This document shows, in pieces, positions 17,137 to 61,406 of a stretch of DNA of 64,000 nt. The stretch is from Erysipelotrichaceae bacterium (lineage in GTDB: Bacteria > Bacillota_I > Bacilli_A > Erysipelotrichales > Erysipelotrichaceae), in NCBI GenBank assembly GCA_017404205.1, contig JAFRCV010000008.1, positions 62,001 to 126,000 on the forward strand. Direction: 5' to 3'. Position 1 is the stretch's first letter; each line of letters starts with the position of its first letter. Position numbers and translations under genes: made by a program. The notes beneath the pieces were generated by a model. The model searched no databases and had not been told where the DNA came from. It saw only the letters and a list, made by a program, of their open reading frames with translations.

Positions 17137-17180
17137 CGTAAAAAAATAAAAATCTTTCGAACTTACACTTCCGAAAGATT
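17137..17180 (-). terminator. riboswitch expression platform terminator
   Basis: On the minus strand AATCTTTCG and CGAAAGATT form a 9-base stem with a 12-base loop followed by a long T-rich tract. It lies between the aptamer and the permease start. Confidence 0.88.
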
Positions 17181-17189
17181 GATAAAAGT

Positions 17190-17260
17190 TCATCGTAGTC
17201 CCGCGATTAAGGTCACAGGGTAGAAACGCTTTCACCAGATTTGAAAGTATATACGATTAT
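17190..17260 (-). promoter_or_regulatory. purine riboswitch, guanine type
   Basis: Reading the minus strand: P1 ATCGTA/TACGAT (17252-17257 with 17192-17197), P2 TTTCA/TGAAA, the invariant J2/3 core TTTCTACC, P3 CCTGTG/CGCGGG with loop, then GGGACTACG. The specificity base in the J3/1 segment (GACTA) is C, equivalent to C74 of the xpt guanine riboswitch; adenine riboswitches have U. Ligand binding would favour the downstream terminator. Ligand class inferred from this single base. Confidence 0.92.
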
Positions 17261-17273
17261 GTAGGACAATTTC

Positions 17274-17282
17274 ATAATAACA
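17274..17282 (-). promoter_or_regulatory. extended -10 of the permease transcript
   Basis: TGT-TATTAT on the minus strand; a start near 17267 places the aptamer at the very 5' end of the RNA. Confidence 0.5.
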
Positions 17283-30992: not shown

Positions 30993-33900
30993 ATGAGAAT
31001 TAAAAGAGTTATTTGCACATTACTAACAGTGCTATTGGTCGTTACTGGATGGCCATCACTGATTCAAGAAGTACAAGCTGATTCATACACTTGGACTGAT
31101 GAAACAAATGGAATTGTTTTTACTTATGAAGACAAAACCGATGGTAGTGTAATCATTACGAAAATCGAACCCGTTAATACAAGCACTGAAGCTGGTAACT
31201 TGGATTTAGTATTCCCAGATATCATTAACGATAAAAACGTAACAGAAATTGCTTTTGATAGCGTTAAGCAAGGCTCATTATATAAAACAGTTACATTTAA
31301 TAAATACATAACAGGAGTTCCATACCATTGGGCTCAAGGATTAACCAATGTAACAAGCATAACTTTCCCAACAGATAGCGAATGTGTAGCCTTAGCAGAA
31401 GAAGCATTTGCTGGCTGTGGTAAATTAACAACTGTAGTATTTGGAAATGGACTTAAAACAATAGGGAAAAAGCTCTTTTACCAATCTGGAAACCTTTCTT
31501 CAGTTACTTTTGGTAATAGTCTTGAATCAATAGGAGACGAAGCGTTCCAAGGCACAAAAGTTACAAACATTGTTATACCTGATAGTGTAACTAATATAGG
31601 TGAAAAAGCATTTTATAGTTGTACCTCACTTGCTACTTTAACCCTAGGATCAGGACTTACAAGTATAGGGGAAGGAGCCTTCCGTAGAATTGCTATATCT
31701 GAACTTGTTCTTCCAAATTCTCTTACAACATTAGGTGTAGATGCTTTTAGAGATATTGGTAATCTAACTTCAATAACATGGCCACAAGGAAACGCAATGT
31801 TTAATACAGTTGATGGATTTAATGGTTGTAGTGCACTTTCTAATGATGTTTTATCAAGTATTCCTTCAACAGTAACTACAATTGCGGATTACGCTTTTGC
31901 AAACTGTCACTTCACTACGGTTACAATTCCACAATCTGTAGAATACGTAGGAGAGTATGCTTTTTCAACTAACTCTTATCTTGAGAGTATTGTAATAAAA
32001 GAAAGTAATGCACCACTTACTATAGATGAATATGCATTTAAAGAAACTTCAAAATTAGTAAGCAAAGACATTATTCTTCCAGAACGTGTAAGCGTGTTAA
32101 AAGACAATGCCTTTGGTTTTGGATATAACACAAATAATACTTTCACGATTTATAACAAAAACATAGTAATAGAAGGAGATCCATGGGACAAAACTCGTTG
32201 GACAACAATAAAGTATCCTTCAGATTTAACTTCTGAAACATCTCCAACATTTATAACATATAAAACAAATAGGGAAGCAAATCCTGGAGACTATCCATTT
32301 GCTTTTGAAACTTTTAATATTATTCAAACTTACACAGTAAGTGGAACAATACCAAATGGTGCTATTTTAACTGCAAATGTAAATGGTACGATTACTTCTC
32401 CAACTCTTACAAGTGGAAGTTTCTCTTTTGAAGCAAATAGTGGAAGTTATGTATCACTTACTATTAGTTTAGATAAATACCAAGATTATGTTTTAACTAA
32501 AAAATCTAGTGAATTTACTTCTGATTTGACGATAGCTGTTAGTATTGCGGATATGGTACCTGTAAGTACTTCTGGAATTCTTGAAATACTTACTGAAGGT
32601 GATGGTGCCATGGATGCAAATGTTTCTATATTTGCATCTGATGGTTCTATAGCAGCTTCTGGCGTTGCAACAGGAGGATTGTTTGTTTCACCTTCATTAA
32701 AACAAGGATCATATACAGTAGTAGCAATTGCTAAAAACTCATATATATCATCTATAACTTCATTAACAAGCTTTGATGAATTAGGTCTTAAAGCTTCTGA
32801 TTACGCAAGAGTAAATGCAATGATTACTGCTGGAGGAACTGCAAAAACAACTCTTAATGTTCCTAATGTCAGTGTTGCTGATTATTCTACTTGGGTTGAC
32901 AGTGTTGGAAGTTTTGTAGATATTGATAGATCAATTGTTACTCTAGGTATGGAATTCTATGCCGATGTATATTATAGAATGGCAGATGACAAAAATGCCG
33001 ATGAAGTTAGAATTGTTATTCCTTCTGGCTTTGATGTTGTATCAGTTACATCTGAATCTACTAAGTATAATGTTTCTGCAATATATAACGCAGGTGTTAT
33101 AACTTTATCAGAATTAAGTGGAAAAGATAAATCTTCTGGTACTGTATATGTTGGTTTAAGATCACAAAAAACTGGTAGTTTTGCAATTAGTGCATCTGTT
33201 ACATCTAGCGATGTAACGATTCCTATCGGAAGTAAGGATTTTGCAGTAGATTCAATAATGATGAAACTTTCTTCTGAATTATTAACTTCTAGAGAGTTTG
33301 GTGTGACTATATATGCTCAACCAGGAAAAACAATAAAATTAAAACCAGGAATTGGTGACGAAATCGTTCTTGGTACTGCAAATAAACTTGGTTATTTAAA
33401 AGCTACTGCAGAACTTCCAACAGATAGCATACCAGGAATTTCATATGGTGTTATTGCAACTGTAACTGATGATGAAGGAACACATAGCGATGTTTCATAT
33501 GTATATCTTGTAGAAGAATCAACATCGATTAAAGATTTCTATTTTATCCATGGTAATCGCCAATATTATCTTGCACAAAACGGAGTCAATAAATCTGGTG
33601 GTTTCTATAACTATATTTCAGACGGAAGTGAAGCAAGTAAAAACTGGACGTTTGGAGTAACTTTTGAAAGTATAACAGCTATATCTGGTAATGTTACTGT
33701 TTCAATAAAGATGGAAGATGGTAGCTTTAGAGACTTAGTATTATCAAAAGTAAGTTCAACTGTACAAAACGGAAAAGTACTAACAGTATATGCAGGAAAT
33801 ATTTATTTAGGTACTGGTGAATATCACGTATTTGATAGTTCAATGATTCCAGCAGGTTTTAATGTTAACTATGAAAGTGAATTTGTTCCTATGGAAACAA

Positions 33901-36854
33901 CTGAAGAATATGATGAAAACCTTTATAAAATAGCTGAAGAAGAATATGATGATAGACTTATGTTTGCGATGAATAAACTACATCCTGGTTATTCTGATAA
34001 CATTGGTGTTTGGACTAAAGAACAAGCAATCAATTATATAGTAACTTCCGGAGATTATAACTCAATCTTTGGCAAAAAGTATTATGTAAGTACTAGTAAA
34101 GACCCAGATGTAGTAGCATTATACAGTTTATTAACTGATGAACAAAAACAAGATGTCATCGCTATGGAAAAAGCCATAGATGATGCATTAGTTGCGCTTG
34201 CTGAATATTTTGGTGACAGCAAACCTTTATATGAATATTCAAGTTGGGATGAGTATATGTTAGATAACTGGATGGATGTTACTGAGCATACACTTAAATC
34301 TAATACGCTTCTAATGAAGAAGGGTTCAGGTGGAGGAGAAGTAGATGTTGAACAACTTATTTCTGCTGGTTACACTATAAGCGGTAATGTAGCATTTAAA
34401 GTTGATAAAAACAATGGTGCATATTCATATTTCTTCCTTGATACGAAAAATAATTCTGCAACTGAATATACGCAAAAGAATAAGGATGTGAATCTCGAAT
34501 TTTGGGATAATGTTAGTGATACAACTTCTACTGCATCAAGTCTTACTGATATAGGCTTAAGTACTTTAGATGCTGCTGCACAAGCCTCAGGTAGTGCCAA
34601 AGCAATTGAAGCTGTCGGAGCAGTAACAAGCAAAGTTGGAACACCATTAGGCTTTATTAATACTATAGCTTCATATGTTGACTTATATAACAGAAGTGAA
34701 ACATATAAGAACAATATGGATGAAGCAAGAAAAATAGAAACCGATATGATGAATGCTGATATGAAATTGGATCAGATTCATAAGCAGTGGTTAGAAGGCA
34801 AGATTTCTGCTGAATGCTATTTTGCAATGCAAGATGAAGCACAAGCTTATAGTTTTGCTAACGATGATGCTAAACTAAGAAACGATATTGTATGGCAAGG
34901 TATGTGTTATGGAGCAGTAAGTGCTACTGTAGGAGCTATTCTATTTGTTCCAGCTGGAGCTGAAGCAATAGGGGCAGCTGCTACGGTTGAATCGTTTGCG
35001 TTTTTAAGTGGTACTGAAGCAGCATGTACTAGCACTTTAGTCGGAGCTTTAAGTTTTGGTGTTGACCAATGCGTTAAGAAGATAACTGCAGATGCTAATA
35101 TTGATGTTGCCTATAATTTAGCGAGAGCAAAATCGGCTCATATGCGTCGTGTAGATGCTTGTGAACGTAACGACTTTAGTGTCGATTACTGGAAAGAAGC
35201 AATCAAAGACCCATCTGGCTTCGTATATGAAGCAGTTGAATCTAATAGAATTGAAGGTGCAACTGCTACACTTGTAAATGTAACAAGTGGTCTTAATTTC
35301 AATGCTACAGATTACGATCAAGAAAACCCATTAACTACTGATGTAGAAGGTCGTTATGCATGGGATGTTCCAAATGGAATTTGGAGAGTAGACGTATCTA
35401 AAGCGGGATACACAACTTCAAGTAGTGCAAACTTGGAAGTTCCACCTCCACGCATGGATGTTAGAATCCCACTAGTTACTAATCAAGCTCCTCAAGTTGA
35501 ATCTGTAAATGCTTATAAAGATTACGTTGAAATAATCTTTGATCAATATATGAAAGTTGATGCTGCATCTGGAATAGTTGCTTCTATAGATGATATTGCT
35601 GCTTCTAGCTATAGTTGGATAGATCCAGAAGAAAGCCCAAGCTCAGAATATTATTCTAAGGTTGTTAGAATTAATACGCCTTCTGGCACTGAAGTAGGTG
35701 ATAACTTACAAATAGTAGTTAATAACGCTAAAAACTATGCAGGTAGTTCAATGTCGTCAGCTTATAACTCAAATGTTGAAGTTACTCATAGACCTAGCAC
35801 TATTGAACTTAATTACGAAACTTCACTTACTATCAAGAATGGTGAAACTAAGAAAGTAATTGTAAAAGTTAAAGATGAAGACGGTAATTACATGAAAGGA
35901 CTAACAGTAAATGCCGTTATAGAAAATACTTTCTTTGCGACTATTGATTCAAGTGGTGTTACCGATAGTAATGGTACAGTAATTCTAAATGCTGAAGGAA
36001 TTTTACCAGGACTAACAAATGTTAAATTTTCTGTTTCTGGAACTACTTTTGAAAAAACAATAGAAGTTAAGGTTGAAACAGAACCTGTAAGAACTAAACG
36101 TCCTACAGCTATAGTAGGCGGCACAACTATTAGTGAAGGAGCTCCTAAAGTTAATAATGTTACTGTTGAAAAAGGTTCTACTTTAACTCTATCAACTGCT
36201 ACTGCAGGAGCTAAGATATACTACATGACAGGAGAAAGCGTTCCATGTTCTAACTGTGTTTTAGAGAAAGAATACACGGGTCCAATAGTACTTAATGAAA
36301 ACGTTAAAATAACAGCTATTGCATACAAGGCAGGTCTTGAATATAGTGAAGATCTTGTTATAAATATTACAGTTACTCAAAAGGCAGATTATACAATTGC
36401 TTATAATCTTAACGGTGGAAGTATTTATGGACTAACAGGAACTATTTATGAAAGCTACAATAAGGGCACAACAATTAATTTATTAGATGCTCCTAGTCGT
36501 GCTGGATATAAGTTCTTATACTGGGATAGTTCTGAATACAAAGCAGGAAGTAGTTATGTAGTTAATGGAAATCGTACTTTTAATGCAATTTGGAAATTAA
36601 TTGATAATAACACTGGTGGAAAAGATACTGGTAAAGATGATACCGGAAAAGGAAGTGATACTGATCCTAAGACATCTGGGAAAGATGATACAACTCCTAA
36701 AAATCCTACTGATAACCCAGTACCTGGTGAAGATACCACAAACAACCAAGGTATAAGCACACCGCTATTAATTACATTAATTGTTTGTGGAATAGGAGTA
36801 CTTACATTTATCTTTATTCTTATTGGTAAAAGAAGAAAGAAAGAAGATGAATAA
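30993..36854 (+). CDS. giant multidomain surface protein (BspA-type LRR, Ig-like, InlB repeat, C-terminal anchor)
   Basis: 1953 residues. A Sec signal (1-30, LLTVLLVVTGWPSLI, then VQADSY) leads to BspA-type leucine-rich repeats (LRR_5, about 45-400; repeated A-F-x-G-C and S-V-T-x-I-G-E-K-A-F units). The centre (400-1300) holds beta-rich repeats and an acidic helical part; 1300-1360 is Ala/Gly-rich and hydrophobic. Then a carboxypeptidase-like regulatory domain (about 1415-1490, DVEGRYAWDVPNGIWRVDVS), Ig-like domains, a chitobiase C-terminal-type module (about 1705-1795), one InlB B-repeat (1800-1870), a D/G/T/K-rich linker, a membrane helix (1919-1945) and a KRRKK tail. No LPXTG is seen before the helix. 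Probably an adhesin held by the membrane helix. Confidence 0.9.
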   Translation: MRIKRVICTLLTVLLVVTGWPSLIQEVQADSYTWTDETNGIVFTYEDKTDGSVIITKIEPVNTSTEAGNLDLVFPDIINDKNVTEIAFDSVKQGSLYKTVTFNKYITGVPYHWAQGLTNVTSITFPTDSECVALAEEAFAGCGKLTTVVFGNGLKTIGKKLFYQSGNLSSVTFGNSLESIGDEAFQGTKVTNIVIPDSVTNIGEKAFYSCTSLATLTLGSGLTSIGEGAFRRIAISELVLPNSLTTLGVDAFRDIGNLTSITWPQGNAMFNTVDGFNGCSALSNDVLSSIPSTVTTIADYAFANCHFTTVTIPQSVEYVGEYAFSTNSYLESIVIKESNAPLTIDEYAFKETSKLVSKDIILPERVSVLKDNAFGFGYNTNNTFTIYNKNIVIEGDPWDKTRWTTIKYPSDLTSETSPTFITYKTNREANPGDYPFAFETFNIIQTYTVSGTIPNGAILTANVNGTITSPTLTSGSFSFEANSGSYVSLTISLDKYQDYVLTKKSSEFTSDLTIAVSIADMVPVSTSGILEILTEGDGAMDANVSIFASDGSIAASGVATGGLFVSPSLKQGSYTVVAIAKNSYISSITSLTSFDELGLKASDYARVNAMITAGGTAKTTLNVPNVSVADYSTWVDSVGSFVDIDRSIVTLGMEFYADVYYRMADDKNADEVRIVIPSGFDVVSVTSESTKYNVSAIYNAGVITLSELSGKDKSSGTVYVGLRSQKTGSFAISASVTSSDVTIPIGSKDFAVDSIMMKLSSELLTSREFGVTIYAQPGKTIKLKPGIGDEIVLGTANKLGYLKATAELPTDSIPGISYGVIATVTDDEGTHSDVSYVYLVEESTSIKDFYFIHGNRQYYLAQNGVNKSGGFYNYISDGSEASKNWTFGVTFESITAISGNVTVSIKMEDGSFRDLVLSKVSSTVQNGKVLTVYAGNIYLGTGEYHVFDSSMIPAGFNVNYESEFVPMETTEEYDENLYKIAEEEYDDRLMFAMNKLHPGYSDNIGVWTKEQAINYIVTSGDYNSIFGKKYYVSTSKDPDVVALYSLLTDEQKQDVIAMEKAIDDALVALAEYFGDSKPLYEYSSWDEYMLDNWMDVTEHTLKSNTLLMKKGSGGGEVDVEQLISAGYTISGNVAFKVDKNNGAYSYFFLDTKNNSATEYTQKNKDVNLEFWDNVSDTTSTASSLTDIGLSTLDAAAQASGSAKAIEAVGAVTSKVGTPLGFINTIASYVDLYNRSETYKNNMDEARKIETDMMNADMKLDQIHKQWLEGKISAECYFAMQDEAQAYSFANDDAKLRNDIVWQGMCYGAVSATVGAILFVPAGAEAIGAAATVESFAFLSGTEAACTSTLVGALSFGVDQCVKKITADANIDVAYNLARAKSAHMRRVDACERNDFSVDYWKEAIKDPSGFVYEAVESNRIEGATATLVNVTSGLNFNATDYDQENPLTTDVEGRYAWDVPNGIWRVDVSKAGYTTSSSANLEVPPPRMDVRIPLVTNQAPQVESVNAYKDYVEIIFDQYMKVDAASGIVASIDDIAASSYSWIDPEESPSSEYYSKVVRINTPSGTEVGDNLQIVVNNAKNYAGSSMSSAYNSNVEVTHRPSTIELNYETSLTIKNGETKKVIVKVKDEDGNYMKGLTVNAVIENTFFATIDSSGVTDSNGTVILNAEGILPGLTNVKFSVSGTTFEKTIEVKVETEPVRTKRPTAIVGGTTISEGAPKVNNVTVEKGSTLTLSTATAGAKIYYMTGESVPCSNCVLEKEYTGPIVLNENVKITAIAYKAGLEYSEDLVINITVTQKADYTIAYNLNGGSIYGLTGTIYESYNKGTTINLLDAPSRAGYKFLYWDSSEYKAGSSYVVNGNRTFNAIWKLIDNNTGGKDTGKDDTGKGSDTDPKTSGKDDTTPKNPTDNPVPGEDTTNNQGISTPLLITLIVCGIGVLTFIFILIGKRRKKEDE

Positions 36855-40901: not shown

Positions 40902-40925
40902 AAAAACGCATTAAATGCGTTTTAA
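40902..40925. terminator. shared terminator, lipoprotein and femX-tRNA transcript
   Basis: AAAACGCATT-AA-ATGCGTTTT palindrome, usable in both directions. Confidence 0.8.
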
Positions 40926-40934
40926 GAATTGATA

Positions 40935-41010
40935 TGGTGCCGACTAACGGACTTGAACCGTTCACCTACGCGTTACGAGTGCGTTGCTCTACCTGATGAG
41001 CTAAGTCGGC
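40935..41010 (-). tRNA. tRNA-Thr (anticodon CGU)
   Basis: 76 bases with encoded CCA. Acceptor GCCGACT/AGTCGGC pairs perfectly, D-arm GCTC/GAGC, anticodon loop CTCGTAA (anticodon CGU, reading ACG), T-arm AACGG-TTCAAGT-CCGTT. The bases closing the anticodon loop are A31 and C39, an A-C mismatch. The first base of the tRNA (41010) is the last base of the TAG stop codon of the upstream FemAB gene, so it is transcribed as the 3' end of that mRNA unless a promoter within the gene exists. Confidence 0.95.
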
Positions 41011-42263
41011 TATTTTTTTGACATTTTATATATCTTTAACATCATATCATAAATATTCTTTAATGGTTTTTGAATTGTATATTCAAATTGACCAATTAAT
41101 TCTAATACTTCTCCACCATATTGTTTCTTATATGTGTAAAGACCATAATTTTTATTATTTGGATCAAAGTTGCCTGTAATGCCATAAAAATTATAATAGT
41201 CATATCCTTCATTGATTGAAAGTTTTATTAATTCTGAAACAATGATATTTGATGAATTAAAATGTTGTAAATAATCTTCATCATTTCCAGCTAATAACAT
41301 AATTGCTTCTTTGCCATAAGTTAAAAGGCAGACAACACTCAATAAAATATTTTTTCCTTTTTCTTTTTCACAAATATTTAATTGTTTTAATAAATTATTT
41401 AAAGAATTTAATGTAACATTTTCTTCTTTTAATTTTCCGATATTATTTTCTTTATGCTCTGATAATTTTTCGATTCTCTTTTTTATTTTATTTTTTTCAA
41501 TTGAAATATTTTCTCTACATCTATCAACATCAATATAAGCACCCATATATCTTAATATGCCATCATCGTGAAGAGTATCATACATTTGTTTATAGTAGGT
41601 AAGTGGTCTATCAATAAATGATCTTCTTTTTGAAGTATCTTCCATTAAATCTTTAAAATCAGTTATTTCTTCTTTTTTAAGTTCTCTAACACTAATAGCT
41701 AAAAAATCTTTCTTATTTACGCGACGTTTCGTTTCTTTTTTAAAGTCTTTTTCTATTTCTTCATAAGTTTTGTTTTTTAAAGGTAATCTAAATAAAAAAC
41801 GGGGTTGAAGATTTTCATAATTTAAATTATAACCTGTATGTTTGTATCCAATTTTCTTTAGTTCTTCAACAATATATGTATTATCAAAAGAATTAGGCAC
41901 AACATCACCATTGATATCTCTTTGGTTTAATGGAAGATATGGATCAATGATGAGTTCAAAAACATTTTCATTTTTCAAATAAGATATTAGTTCTTTATTA
42001 AAACTTTCCAATTGTTCAAAATCAAAATAATTAATTAAATAACCTCTTGGGCAATATGCCAAAAAGGAGTCAAATATAGGCATGCTTCTAAGTAAAAATA
42101 AGCCAATTCCTAGTAATTTATTATTTTCATAGTAGCCTAAGTAAAGGGGCTTCCAACCAGTAAAAGACTTCAGAGAAGCCCAATTACTTGTTTGATAAAA
42201 AGTGACATTAGGGAATGTTCTTGCTAATCTATTAAACTCTTCTACTTTAATTTCTTTTATCAT
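41010..42263 (-). CDS. FemAB-family peptidoglycan aminoacyltransferase (second gene)
   Basis: 417 residues, FemABX family. Uses aminoacyl-tRNA to add residues to the stem-peptide branch of lipid II. FYQTSNWASLKSFTGWKPLY, then AYCPRGYLINYFDF and RRSFIDRPLTYYKQMYD mark the GNAT-like domains; a coiled-coil arm (about 255-305, CRENISIEKNKIKKRIEKL) is typical of the tRNA-binding arm of FemA/MurM; then LLAGNDEDYLQHFN and YDYYNFYGITGNF complete the fold. Start overlaps the stop of the first femX gene (ATGA). Its TAG is joined to tRNA-Thr. Confidence 0.9.
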   Translation of the reverse strand: MIKEIKVEEFNRLARTFPNVTFYQTSNWASLKSFTGWKPLYLGYYENNKLLGIGLFLLRSMPIFDSFLAYCPRGYLINYFDFEQLESFNKELISYLKNENVFELIIDPYLPLNQRDINGDVVPNSFDNTYIVEELKKIGYKHTGYNLNYENLQPRFLFRLPLKNKTYEEIEKDFKKETKRRVNKKDFLAISVRELKKEEITDFKDLMEDTSKRRSFIDRPLTYYKQMYDTLHDDGILRYMGAYIDVDRCRENISIEKNKIKKRIEKLSEHKENNIGKLKEENVTLNSLNNLLKQLNICEKEKGKNILLSVVCLLTYGKEAIMLLAGNDEDYLQHFNSSNIIVSELIKLSINEGYDYYNFYGITGNFDPNNKNYGLYTYKKQYGGEVLELIGQFEYTIQKPLKNIYDMMLKIYKMSKK

Positions 42264-43522
42264 TGTTTTAGTGAACGATGGTACAATATCCTTCTTCTTA
42301 ATTTAAGTACCTTATTAATTATACTATTCATAATTGGTTTAATGACAAAATCAAATTCACCAATAAATTCATCAAAGTCACCACCAAATCTTAATTTAAA
42401 TAAATAGATTCCATAAATAGGGGAATTTTTATCAACTTTTCCTTCGCTACCATAAAAATCAACATATTGATATCCGTTATTATGAGCATCTAATAAAATA
42501 TGATAATAAAGTTCATAATTTGCGTTTAAAAATTGCAATCTGTCACTATTACCACCATGTATTGTCCAAACTTTGTTGCCAAATTTTGTAGTAATGATCG
42601 AAGACAAAATAATTCTCTGTTCTTTTAGATCATCTACTTCTTTTTTCATTTTAAGAATTTTATTTCTTTTTAAATCTAAATCCTTTAGTTTGTTTTCATT
42701 TTTCTTATTTTTAGTTTTGTTGTTAAATTCATTAATTTCCTTATCAACATCTTTAATTTTATTATCTAAAATATTCTTTAAATCTTGAATATTGACACTG
42801 GCAACATAAACATCTGCTTCATCTTTGTTTTGTAATAATTCAAAAAAATCTTTAAAGTATTCAAATGGTTCTACATATAACTTTTTTCGTATAGAAGTCT
42901 CTTTCATTACTGAATAAAAGTCATCTAAGGCATTTGGATAATTCTTTTCAATTTGAATATTATAAGGATTATTTTCCTTAATTATTTTTTTTGTGGTGTT
43001 ATGAAATAAACTAAATATTTCATCAATGCTTTTAGATACATCAACTCTGAATGTAAAGCGAGGAGCTGATGACTCAGAAAATTTTGTTGTAAATCCGCGA
43101 TGCTTTCCGCCGTTTTCTTTAAAAAAATCTATTAAAGAAAAATTATATTCATCAATATAAGTAGGATTCGCATTATCATCGAGTTTTCTAATTATGATGT
43201 CTGGATTAATCTTAAAATACAATCCTTTATTCTTTTTTGTATATTCTTTAAGTAAGGAAATAATTTGTTTAAGTATATTCTTATCATAATAATTAGCGTT
43301 AAAACCTCTTGGGCAATAAAAGGTTGAATAAACGGGAAGTTTTTTTTCTAATAAAAGAGCACTGCCAACAATCTTATTTTCATCATAAAATCCTAAATAA
43401 TGAGGAATATAATTTCTTTTCTTTGAAACATCTCCAAAGCCACTTGTTTGCATAAAATGTGCATCTTTAATGCTTCTTTGATATTGATCGAACTCTTTTT
43501 CGCTTATTACTTTTAATTCCAT
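42260..43522 (-). CDS. FemAB-family peptidoglycan aminoacyltransferase (first gene)
   Basis: 420 residues, FemABX family. Similar blocks: FMQTSGFGDVSKKRNYIPHY, FYCPRGFNANYY, RKKLYVEPFEYFKDFFELL, a coiled-coil arm at about 245-290 (DNKIKDVDKEINEFNNKTK), IHGGNSDRLQFLNANYELYY and YVDFYGSEGKVD. Two paralogous FemAB genes in a row usually mean that an interpeptide bridge of at least two steps is made. The ATG directly follows TGT-TATAAT and six Ts, with no Shine-Dalgarno, so its mRNA is likely leaderless. The amino acids used cannot be deduced. Confidence 0.9.
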   Translation of the reverse strand: MELKVISEKEFDQYQRSIKDAHFMQTSGFGDVSKKRNYIPHYLGFYDENKIVGSALLLEKKLPVYSTFYCPRGFNANYYDKNILKQIISLLKEYTKKNKGLYFKINPDIIIRKLDDNANPTYIDEYNFSLIDFFKENGGKHRGFTTKFSESSAPRFTFRVDVSKSIDEIFSLFHNTTKKIIKENNPYNIQIEKNYPNALDDFYSVMKETSIRKKLYVEPFEYFKDFFELLQNKDEADVYVASVNIQDLKNILDNKIKDVDKEINEFNNKTKNKKNENKLKDLDLKRNKILKMKKEVDDLKEQRIILSSIITTKFGNKVWTIHGGNSDRLQFLNANYELYYHILLDAHNNGYQYVDFYGSEGKVDKNSPIYGIYLFKLRFGGDFDEFIGEFDFVIKPIMNSIINKVLKLRRRILYHRSLKQ

Positions 43523-43528
43523 AAAAAA

Positions 43529-43537
43529 ATTATAACA
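43529..43537 (-). promoter_or_regulatory. extended -10 of the femX operon, leaderless
   Basis: TGT-TATAAT on the minus strand followed by six T and the ATG at 43522. Confidence 0.7.
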
Positions 43538-61317: not shown

Positions 61318-61393
61318 GTTGTCTCCCTATAGGGTCTCAACCGCTCAGAAAAGGTTTTAAGCATAGCACCTTTATGGCGAGTCTAAATCAAAG
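61318..61393 (+). promoter_or_regulatory. ribosomal protein L21 leader
   Basis: Structured leader directly before rplU: a CCC-TATA-GGG hairpin, then GCTCAGAAAAGG and a second arm with AAGCATAGCACCTTT. Position and start (TGTCTCCC) fit the L21 leader class of Bacillota, where L21 is thought to repress its operon. An in-frame ATG at 61374 within it is not the start of rplU. Confidence 0.65.
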
Positions 61394-61406
61394 AAAGGAG
61401 AAAATT

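Follow-up and report, generated by a model that had tools for sequence, protein, structure and literature searches.

tRNA-Thr(CGU) at the stop codon of femX in an Erysipelotrichaceae bacterium: probably a tRNA carried as the tail of a protein operon

Introduction

Why should a tRNA gene begin within the stop codon of a gene encoding a FemAB-family aminoacyltransferase? This question is raised by a locus of an Erysipelotrichaceae bacterium (assembly GCA_017404205.1) situated in a 64,000-nucleotide stretch of contig JAFRCV010000008.1 (positions 62,001 to 126,000), which is called the window here. FemAB enzymes draw amino acids from aminoacyl-tRNA (PMC4052509), and the first-pass annotation of the window suggested that FemX2 uses the Thr-tRNA(CGU) encoded next to it for inserting threonine into the peptidoglycan bridge, while cotranscription matches the supply of this tRNA to the demand. 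The pair of an aminoacyl-tRNA user and a neighbouring tRNA is suggestive; it is also explicable by a general genome habit. The locus represents a natural case of bacterial protein genes welded to tRNA genes, in which over 40 junctions of two unrelated hosts can be compared, and it allows one to test whether tRNA excision at the stop codon influences the stability of a bacterial mRNA and the end of its translation.

The femX–tRNA-Thr(CGU) locus

The genes follow on the minus strand in the order femX1 (42260–43522, 420 aa), femX2 (41010–42263, 417 aa), tRNA-Thr(CGU) (40935–41010, CCA encoded) and an intrinsic terminator (40903–40923). The two femX genes overlap by 4 nt (42260–42263), and the femX2 reading frame ends in ...AAA AAA TAG, so that base 41010 is both the G of this stop codon and G1 of the tRNA. 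This shared base, claimed in the first-pass annotation, is confirmed by the reading of the ORF and by two tRNA calls, from ARAGORN and from Rfam (RF00005, 62.3 bits). The terminator claimed past the CCA end was also found: its hairpin, with a 9-bp stem and a T-rich tail, begins 11 nt downstream and is common to femX1, femX2 and the tRNA. Since the tRNA gene is codirectional with femX2 and the only terminator lies 3' of the tRNA, with none in between, the locus has the arrangement of an mRNA–tRNA cotranscript. The source genome (1.62 Mb in 23 contigs, 99.7% complete) was found to contain three tRNA-Thr genes, one each for UGU, GGU and CGU; the count proposed in the first-pass annotation thus gives a single CGU copy.

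Both proteins match PF02388 across almost the whole profile (E 6.2e-70 for FemX1 and 2.2e-84 for FemX2). FemX2 was aligned with the structures 1lrz, 6snr and 4ii9, and a FemX2-like profile matched Staphylococcus aureus FemA (1lrz, E 7e-99), S. aureus FemX (6snr, E 8e-74) and Weissella FemX (E 1e-25). Residue K379 of FemX2, invariant in our alignment (A1), corresponds to Lys305 of Weissella FemX (1ne9), the proposed catalytic lysine (PMC12945691). Judged from these comparisons, FemX1 and FemX2 are ordinary, sequence-complete FemAB members. This completeness, together with the abutting tRNA and the known dependence of the family on aminoacyl-tRNA, speaks for the supply of Thr-tRNA to FemX2, while the search with Rfam for a T-box leader naming an amino acid, which gave none at the gathering score, speaks against it.

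Some other features of the window and of the family are worth mentioning. Rfam detected a purine riboswitch (17176–17276, minus strand) and a ribosomal protein L21 leader (61329–61394, plus strand), and positions 30993–36854 of the plus strand encode a secreted, leucine-rich-repeat-like surface protein of 1953 aa, which has a membrane anchor at its C-terminus. Separate FemAB-like proteins of about 350 aa, which match only the second half of the FemAB profile, adjoin a glycosyltransferase gene in relatives (L224, L226, L227, L228). Partial FemAB matches in five genomes (G003, G021, G023, G025, G034) were considered as split FemX halves, and this was rejected after the four loci read proved to encode such ~350-aa proteins. 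A search for FemX on viral contigs found none.

Conservation of the junction within the genus

The survey of this genus of gut bacteria included 36 genomes with our own and was made by fetched stretches, in which each tRNA-Thr(CGU) junction was read. We infer that this genus is Bulleidia in GTDB, which unites Solobacterium, Bulleidia and Lactimicrobium in a single genus of this name (PMC12786226). By a strict pattern tRNA-Thr(CGU) was detected in 29 of the 36 genomes; it was found in addition in G008 by similarity and in G020 as a partly masked copy. In 18 species the stop of a FemAB-family ORF lies between –1 and +2 nt from this tRNA. Roughly estimated from a density near one gene per kb, with half of the genes on the given strand, a given tRNA would start so near a stop with a chance of about 2 in 1000, and the junction is not a matter of chance: it is real, conserved and mildly unusual. 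The neighbours are thus not random, which would have spoken against the first-pass annotation; they are conserved in the genus, though not as aminoacyl-tRNA consumers. Of 80 FemAB loci from named genomes only three, all belonging to the same genus group, have tRNA-Thr behind FemAB, and no tRNA was found directly behind it in the 77 other loci sampled.

The conserved linkage of FemAB-family genes with tRNA-Thr(CGU) is the further argument for the supply of Thr-tRNA, and the spacing in different lineages argues against it. The junction is tightest with short FemX homologues, where spacing is –1, 0 or +1 nt in 16 of 16 species. With full-length FemAB genes it is –1 in the source genome (G000), +2 in G018, 6 in G007, 10 in locus L135 and 19 in G025, and looser values are 40 (L136), 43 (G014), 777 (G001) and 799 nt (G020), the genes being unlinked in G008. 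The clade of the window's FemX2 itself (G000, G007, G014, G001, G020 and G008) covers this range from –1 nt to unlinked, and the weld is tight in just two of its six members. Moreover, the tRNA is kept in four species that have no FemX at this place, where it lies 5–9 nt past the gene of the CCA-adding enzyme (Pfam PolyA_pol). The base shared by stop and tRNA occurs only in G000 and G017, and nearly all others would retain the whole stop codon after the tRNA is cut out. In G012, G016 and G026 the tRNA lies at a contig edge, which is compatible with the junction.

The usual order in the genus is pnp (opposite strand), cca in some cases, short femX, tRNA-Thr and truA–ecfT (opposite strand). In the window and in G014 the femX–tRNA unit is flanked by FAD-dependent oxidoreductase genes on one side and by a gene for an M20-type peptidase on the other, while the full-length femX1–femX2–tRNA unit of G025 adjoins truA–ecfT; the unit therefore occupies two different genomic neighbourhoods. 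Among these neighbours cca alone was named by family search; for pnp, truA, ecfT, the oxidoreductase and the peptidase we take the names from sequence recognition. The partner upstream of the tRNA also varies and may be femX2, a gene of the femX1 branch of the tree (G018), short femX or cca, so tRNA-Thr(CGU) remains at the end of whichever gene comes last. At seven loci (L116, L125, L229, L111, L095, L099, L112) cca directly precedes the short femX–tRNA-Thr pair or the tRNA itself, and with truA and pnp nearby the cca–tRNA-Thr loci appear as a cluster of RNA-maturation genes.

FemX at the tightest junctions

The short FemX homologues (L042, L044–L058, L229) occur in most of the genus, have 295–332 aa and diverge rapidly. 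Their match to PF02388 is confined to the first 110–190 positions, and the short and full-length profiles align end to end (E 4e-36) with deletions. These deletions include the FYGxxGxF...NYGLYxYKK segment, which bears the catalytic lysine, and no conserved lysine is found there. The short proteins form one clade (support 100/100, in a tree rooted at the midpoint). Their dN/dS is 0.06–0.24 for pairs with at least 59% identity, dS being near saturation, and this purifying selection suggests that they have some role. Nevertheless, the FemX of the tightest welds is probably not an active transferase, as its sequence suggests, which is difficult to reconcile with a tRNA supplied for transfer.

Structure and use of tRNA-Thr(CGU)

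Bridge-dedicated tRNAs of the S. aureus tRNA-Gly type follow a rule: loss of G18 and G19 and/or a weakened T-arm permits escape from EF-Tu (PMC4052509, PMC9976931). In the window and in the aligned relatives tRNA-Thr(CGU) keeps G18 and G19 and its T-arm pairs are regular, so nothing in its sequence suggests an escape from translation. The codon ACG accounts for 53 of the 956 Thr codons in the ORFs of the window, and hence the tRNA has ordinary work.

This tRNA has a peculiarity of its own at the 15:48 pair, for which a purine at 15 and a pyrimidine at 48 are the rule, the G15-G48 of E. coli tRNA-Cys being atypical (PMC9976931). The pair is U15:G48, that is, a reversed Levitt pair, in 26 of 33 sequences, G15:C48 in six and C15:A48 in one. 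The other tRNAs read in our genome all have a purine at 15, and all have a pyrimidine at 48 except Arg(UCU) with G15:A48. Since U15:G48 is present also where FemX is absent, it gives no argument for a FemX role.

The dUTPase–tRNA-Arg(CCG) junction

The decisive comparison is provided by a second weld. The lone tRNA-Arg(CCG) of the source genome (L217:3768-3844) begins 2 nt past the dUTPase ORF, and the spacing is 0, 1 or 2 nt in all 24 junctions of dut with tRNA-Arg(CCG) that were read (23 species; L234, L236–L258). The signature at these junctions, "TGA T" or "TAA", is the same as at the femX junctions. We know of no use of aminoacyl-tRNA by dUTPase. Among about 30 independent tRNA starts in G005, only those of Thr(CGU) and Arg(CCG) abut an ORF, each at a distance of 1 nt. 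In G051, which represents a different family of the same order, no such case occurs among about 23 starts, the nearest being at 26 nt. Therefore, the weld does not mark FemX but is a way in which this genus habitually places certain minor tRNAs.

There are further tRNAs near ORF ends in the source genome. tRNA-Ser(CGA) (L214:991-1079) lies 7 nt past an aminotransferase-like ORF, and, like Thr(CGU) and Arg(CCG), it is a C34 isoacceptor. Another C34 tRNA, Glu(CTC), lies 23–38 nt past a small ORF resembling ribosomal protein L20 (L022:1501-1576 in our genome; L282 in G005), and in our genome it is immediately adjoined by a hairpin that resembles a terminator and carries a T run.

Taken with the short FemX, the tRNAs without FemX, the loosened welds of the FemX2 clade and the retained G18 and G19, the dut junctions leave the supply of Thr-tRNA to FemX2 unsupported, and with it the predicted threonine in the bridge. 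After the comparison of relatives and the dut control we rejected it as the main explanation and regard it as most improbable.

Promoters

A probable operon promoter with an extended –10 (TGtTATAAT, 43529–43537, minus strand), recognised by its match to the consensus, precedes the start codon of femX1 by 6 nt. Upstream of the tRNA, the last codons of femX2 contain a weak –10-like sequence, TATAAAAT (41023–41030, minus strand), in which TATAAA/TAAAAT can be read 13–20 nt before the tRNA. It has no good –35 and lies in AT-rich DNA, where promoter-like sites are not above chance (21 found, 21.9 expected), and it may be a promoter of the tRNA, though a doubtful one.

We scored the best match to TATAAT 7–45 nt upstream of tRNA genes and counted at least 5 of 6 positions as a box. 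A box precedes 40 of 47 other independently placed tRNAs (G000 and G005) versus 5 of 22 at the Thr–femX junctions and 0 of 25 at the Arg–dut junctions, a comparison partly confounded by base composition, as the expectations after shuffling are 0.50, 0.27 and 0.11, respectively. These counts support, short of proof, that the welded tRNAs lack a promoter of their own. The absence of a visible separate promoter, noted in the first-pass annotation, is thereby strengthened at the level of the genus and only partly secure for the window, where the TATAAAAT box is present.

One can suggest that the tRNA has its own promoter within the 3' end of the upstream gene, the abutment being mere genome compaction and no notable cotranscript. 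The box of the window agrees with this, as do TATAAT in G001, a promoter-like box in G020 and TATTAT/TAGAAT in the cca cases (all four cca–Thr upstreams score 5), and separate transcription of the tRNA is possible in a part of the genus. With 17 of the 22 Thr–femX upstreams below 5/6 and none of the 25 Arg–dut upstreams reaching it, we consider this very unlikely as a general explanation.

Discussion

The presented data are best explained by a minor tRNA whose own promoter is weak or lacking and which probably rides as the 3' tail of an upstream protein operon. RNA polymerase would start before femX1, transcribe femX1, femX2 and the tRNA and stop at the shared hairpin, so that the tRNA would be made mainly by readthrough from the femX1–femX2 operon. 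Cotranscription, as proposed in the first-pass annotation, is indeed likely given the lack of a terminator between the genes, the shared one after the tRNA and the scarcity of boxes. RNase P would cut at base 1 of the tRNA and leave a femX mRNA that ends at the stop codon, in the window inside it. The suggestion that this enzyme must cut at the stop codon is supported as a consequence of the shared base. The cut in the window would leave an mRNA ending in UA with an incomplete stop, while in nearly all relatives it would leave the whole stop and 0–2 bases.

We suppose that this arrangement permits a minor, wobble-redundant C34 tRNA to be expressed although it lacks a strong promoter itself, and that at least two such uses exist in the genus, for Thr-CGU behind femX and Arg-CCG behind dut. 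FemX would then be a host gene and no privileged customer, with tRNA-Thr(CGU) presumably serving ordinary ACG decoding and no supply function.

Hitch-hiking on an operon does not require a spacing as strict as –1 to +2 nt in about 40 junctions, and the junction may itself be functional. Perhaps the 0–1 nt spacing is selected, and tRNA excision at the stop governs the life of the host mRNAs (femX, dut) or the end of their translation. The constancy of spacing behind genes as unrelated as femX and dut, whose proteins have diverged strongly, is in line with this; however, a junction without a spacer cannot shrink, and its constancy may merely reflect the rarity of insertions. The full-length FemX relatives tolerate 6–800 nt, and the stop mostly remains intact after the cut, the base being shared in just two species. 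We regard such coupling, a bacterial analogue of the tRNA punctuation of organelles, as rather unlikely; the papers found describe this punctuation in mitochondria only. The same idea can be formulated as bacterial tRNA punctuation in which excision of two minor tRNAs by RNase P sets the femX and dut mRNA ends exactly at the stop under selection for the 0–1 nt spacing; in the window the cut would remove the last stop base, and tRNA processing would thereby limit the finished FemX per transcript. This we consider unlikely.

In open-licence papers we found none on FemX with tRNA-Thr and none on stop-abutting junctions of this type in bacteria, and the comparison with known systems places the operon-tail arrangement as follows. 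The FemX, FemA and FemB enzymes of PF02388 are the family to which FemX1 and FemX2 of the window belong as sequence-complete members, by sequence criteria, while the FemX next to tRNA-Thr is, in most of the genus, a shortened homologue lacking the catalytic-lysine segment. The S. aureus non-proteinogenic tRNA-Gly dedicated to the bridge is comparable in concept, as a tRNA committed to FemX; in contrast, tRNA-Thr(CGU) keeps G18 and G19 and reads a codon in use. In mitochondrial punctuation tRNA excision also sets mRNA ends and the stop may be cut short, with completion by polyadenylation, but it is genome-wide, whereas here it would concern two or three genes with an intact stop in most species. 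The closest likeness is to the E. coli units secG-leuU, whose RNase P processing was reportedly studied by Mohanty and Kushner in 2008 (cited in PMC3985628), and thrU-tyrU-glyT-thrT-tufB, an operon joining tRNA genes and a protein gene: a tRNA lies in the unit of a protein gene, is freed by processing enzymes and is followed by a Rho-independent terminator. The junctions studied here differ from them in that a tRNA, being a minor C34 isoacceptor, is placed at or within the stop with no spacer, and in that the spacing recurs throughout a genus behind two host genes unrelated to each other. The femX and dut junctions probably add a variant to the known bacterial mRNA–tRNA cotranscripts.
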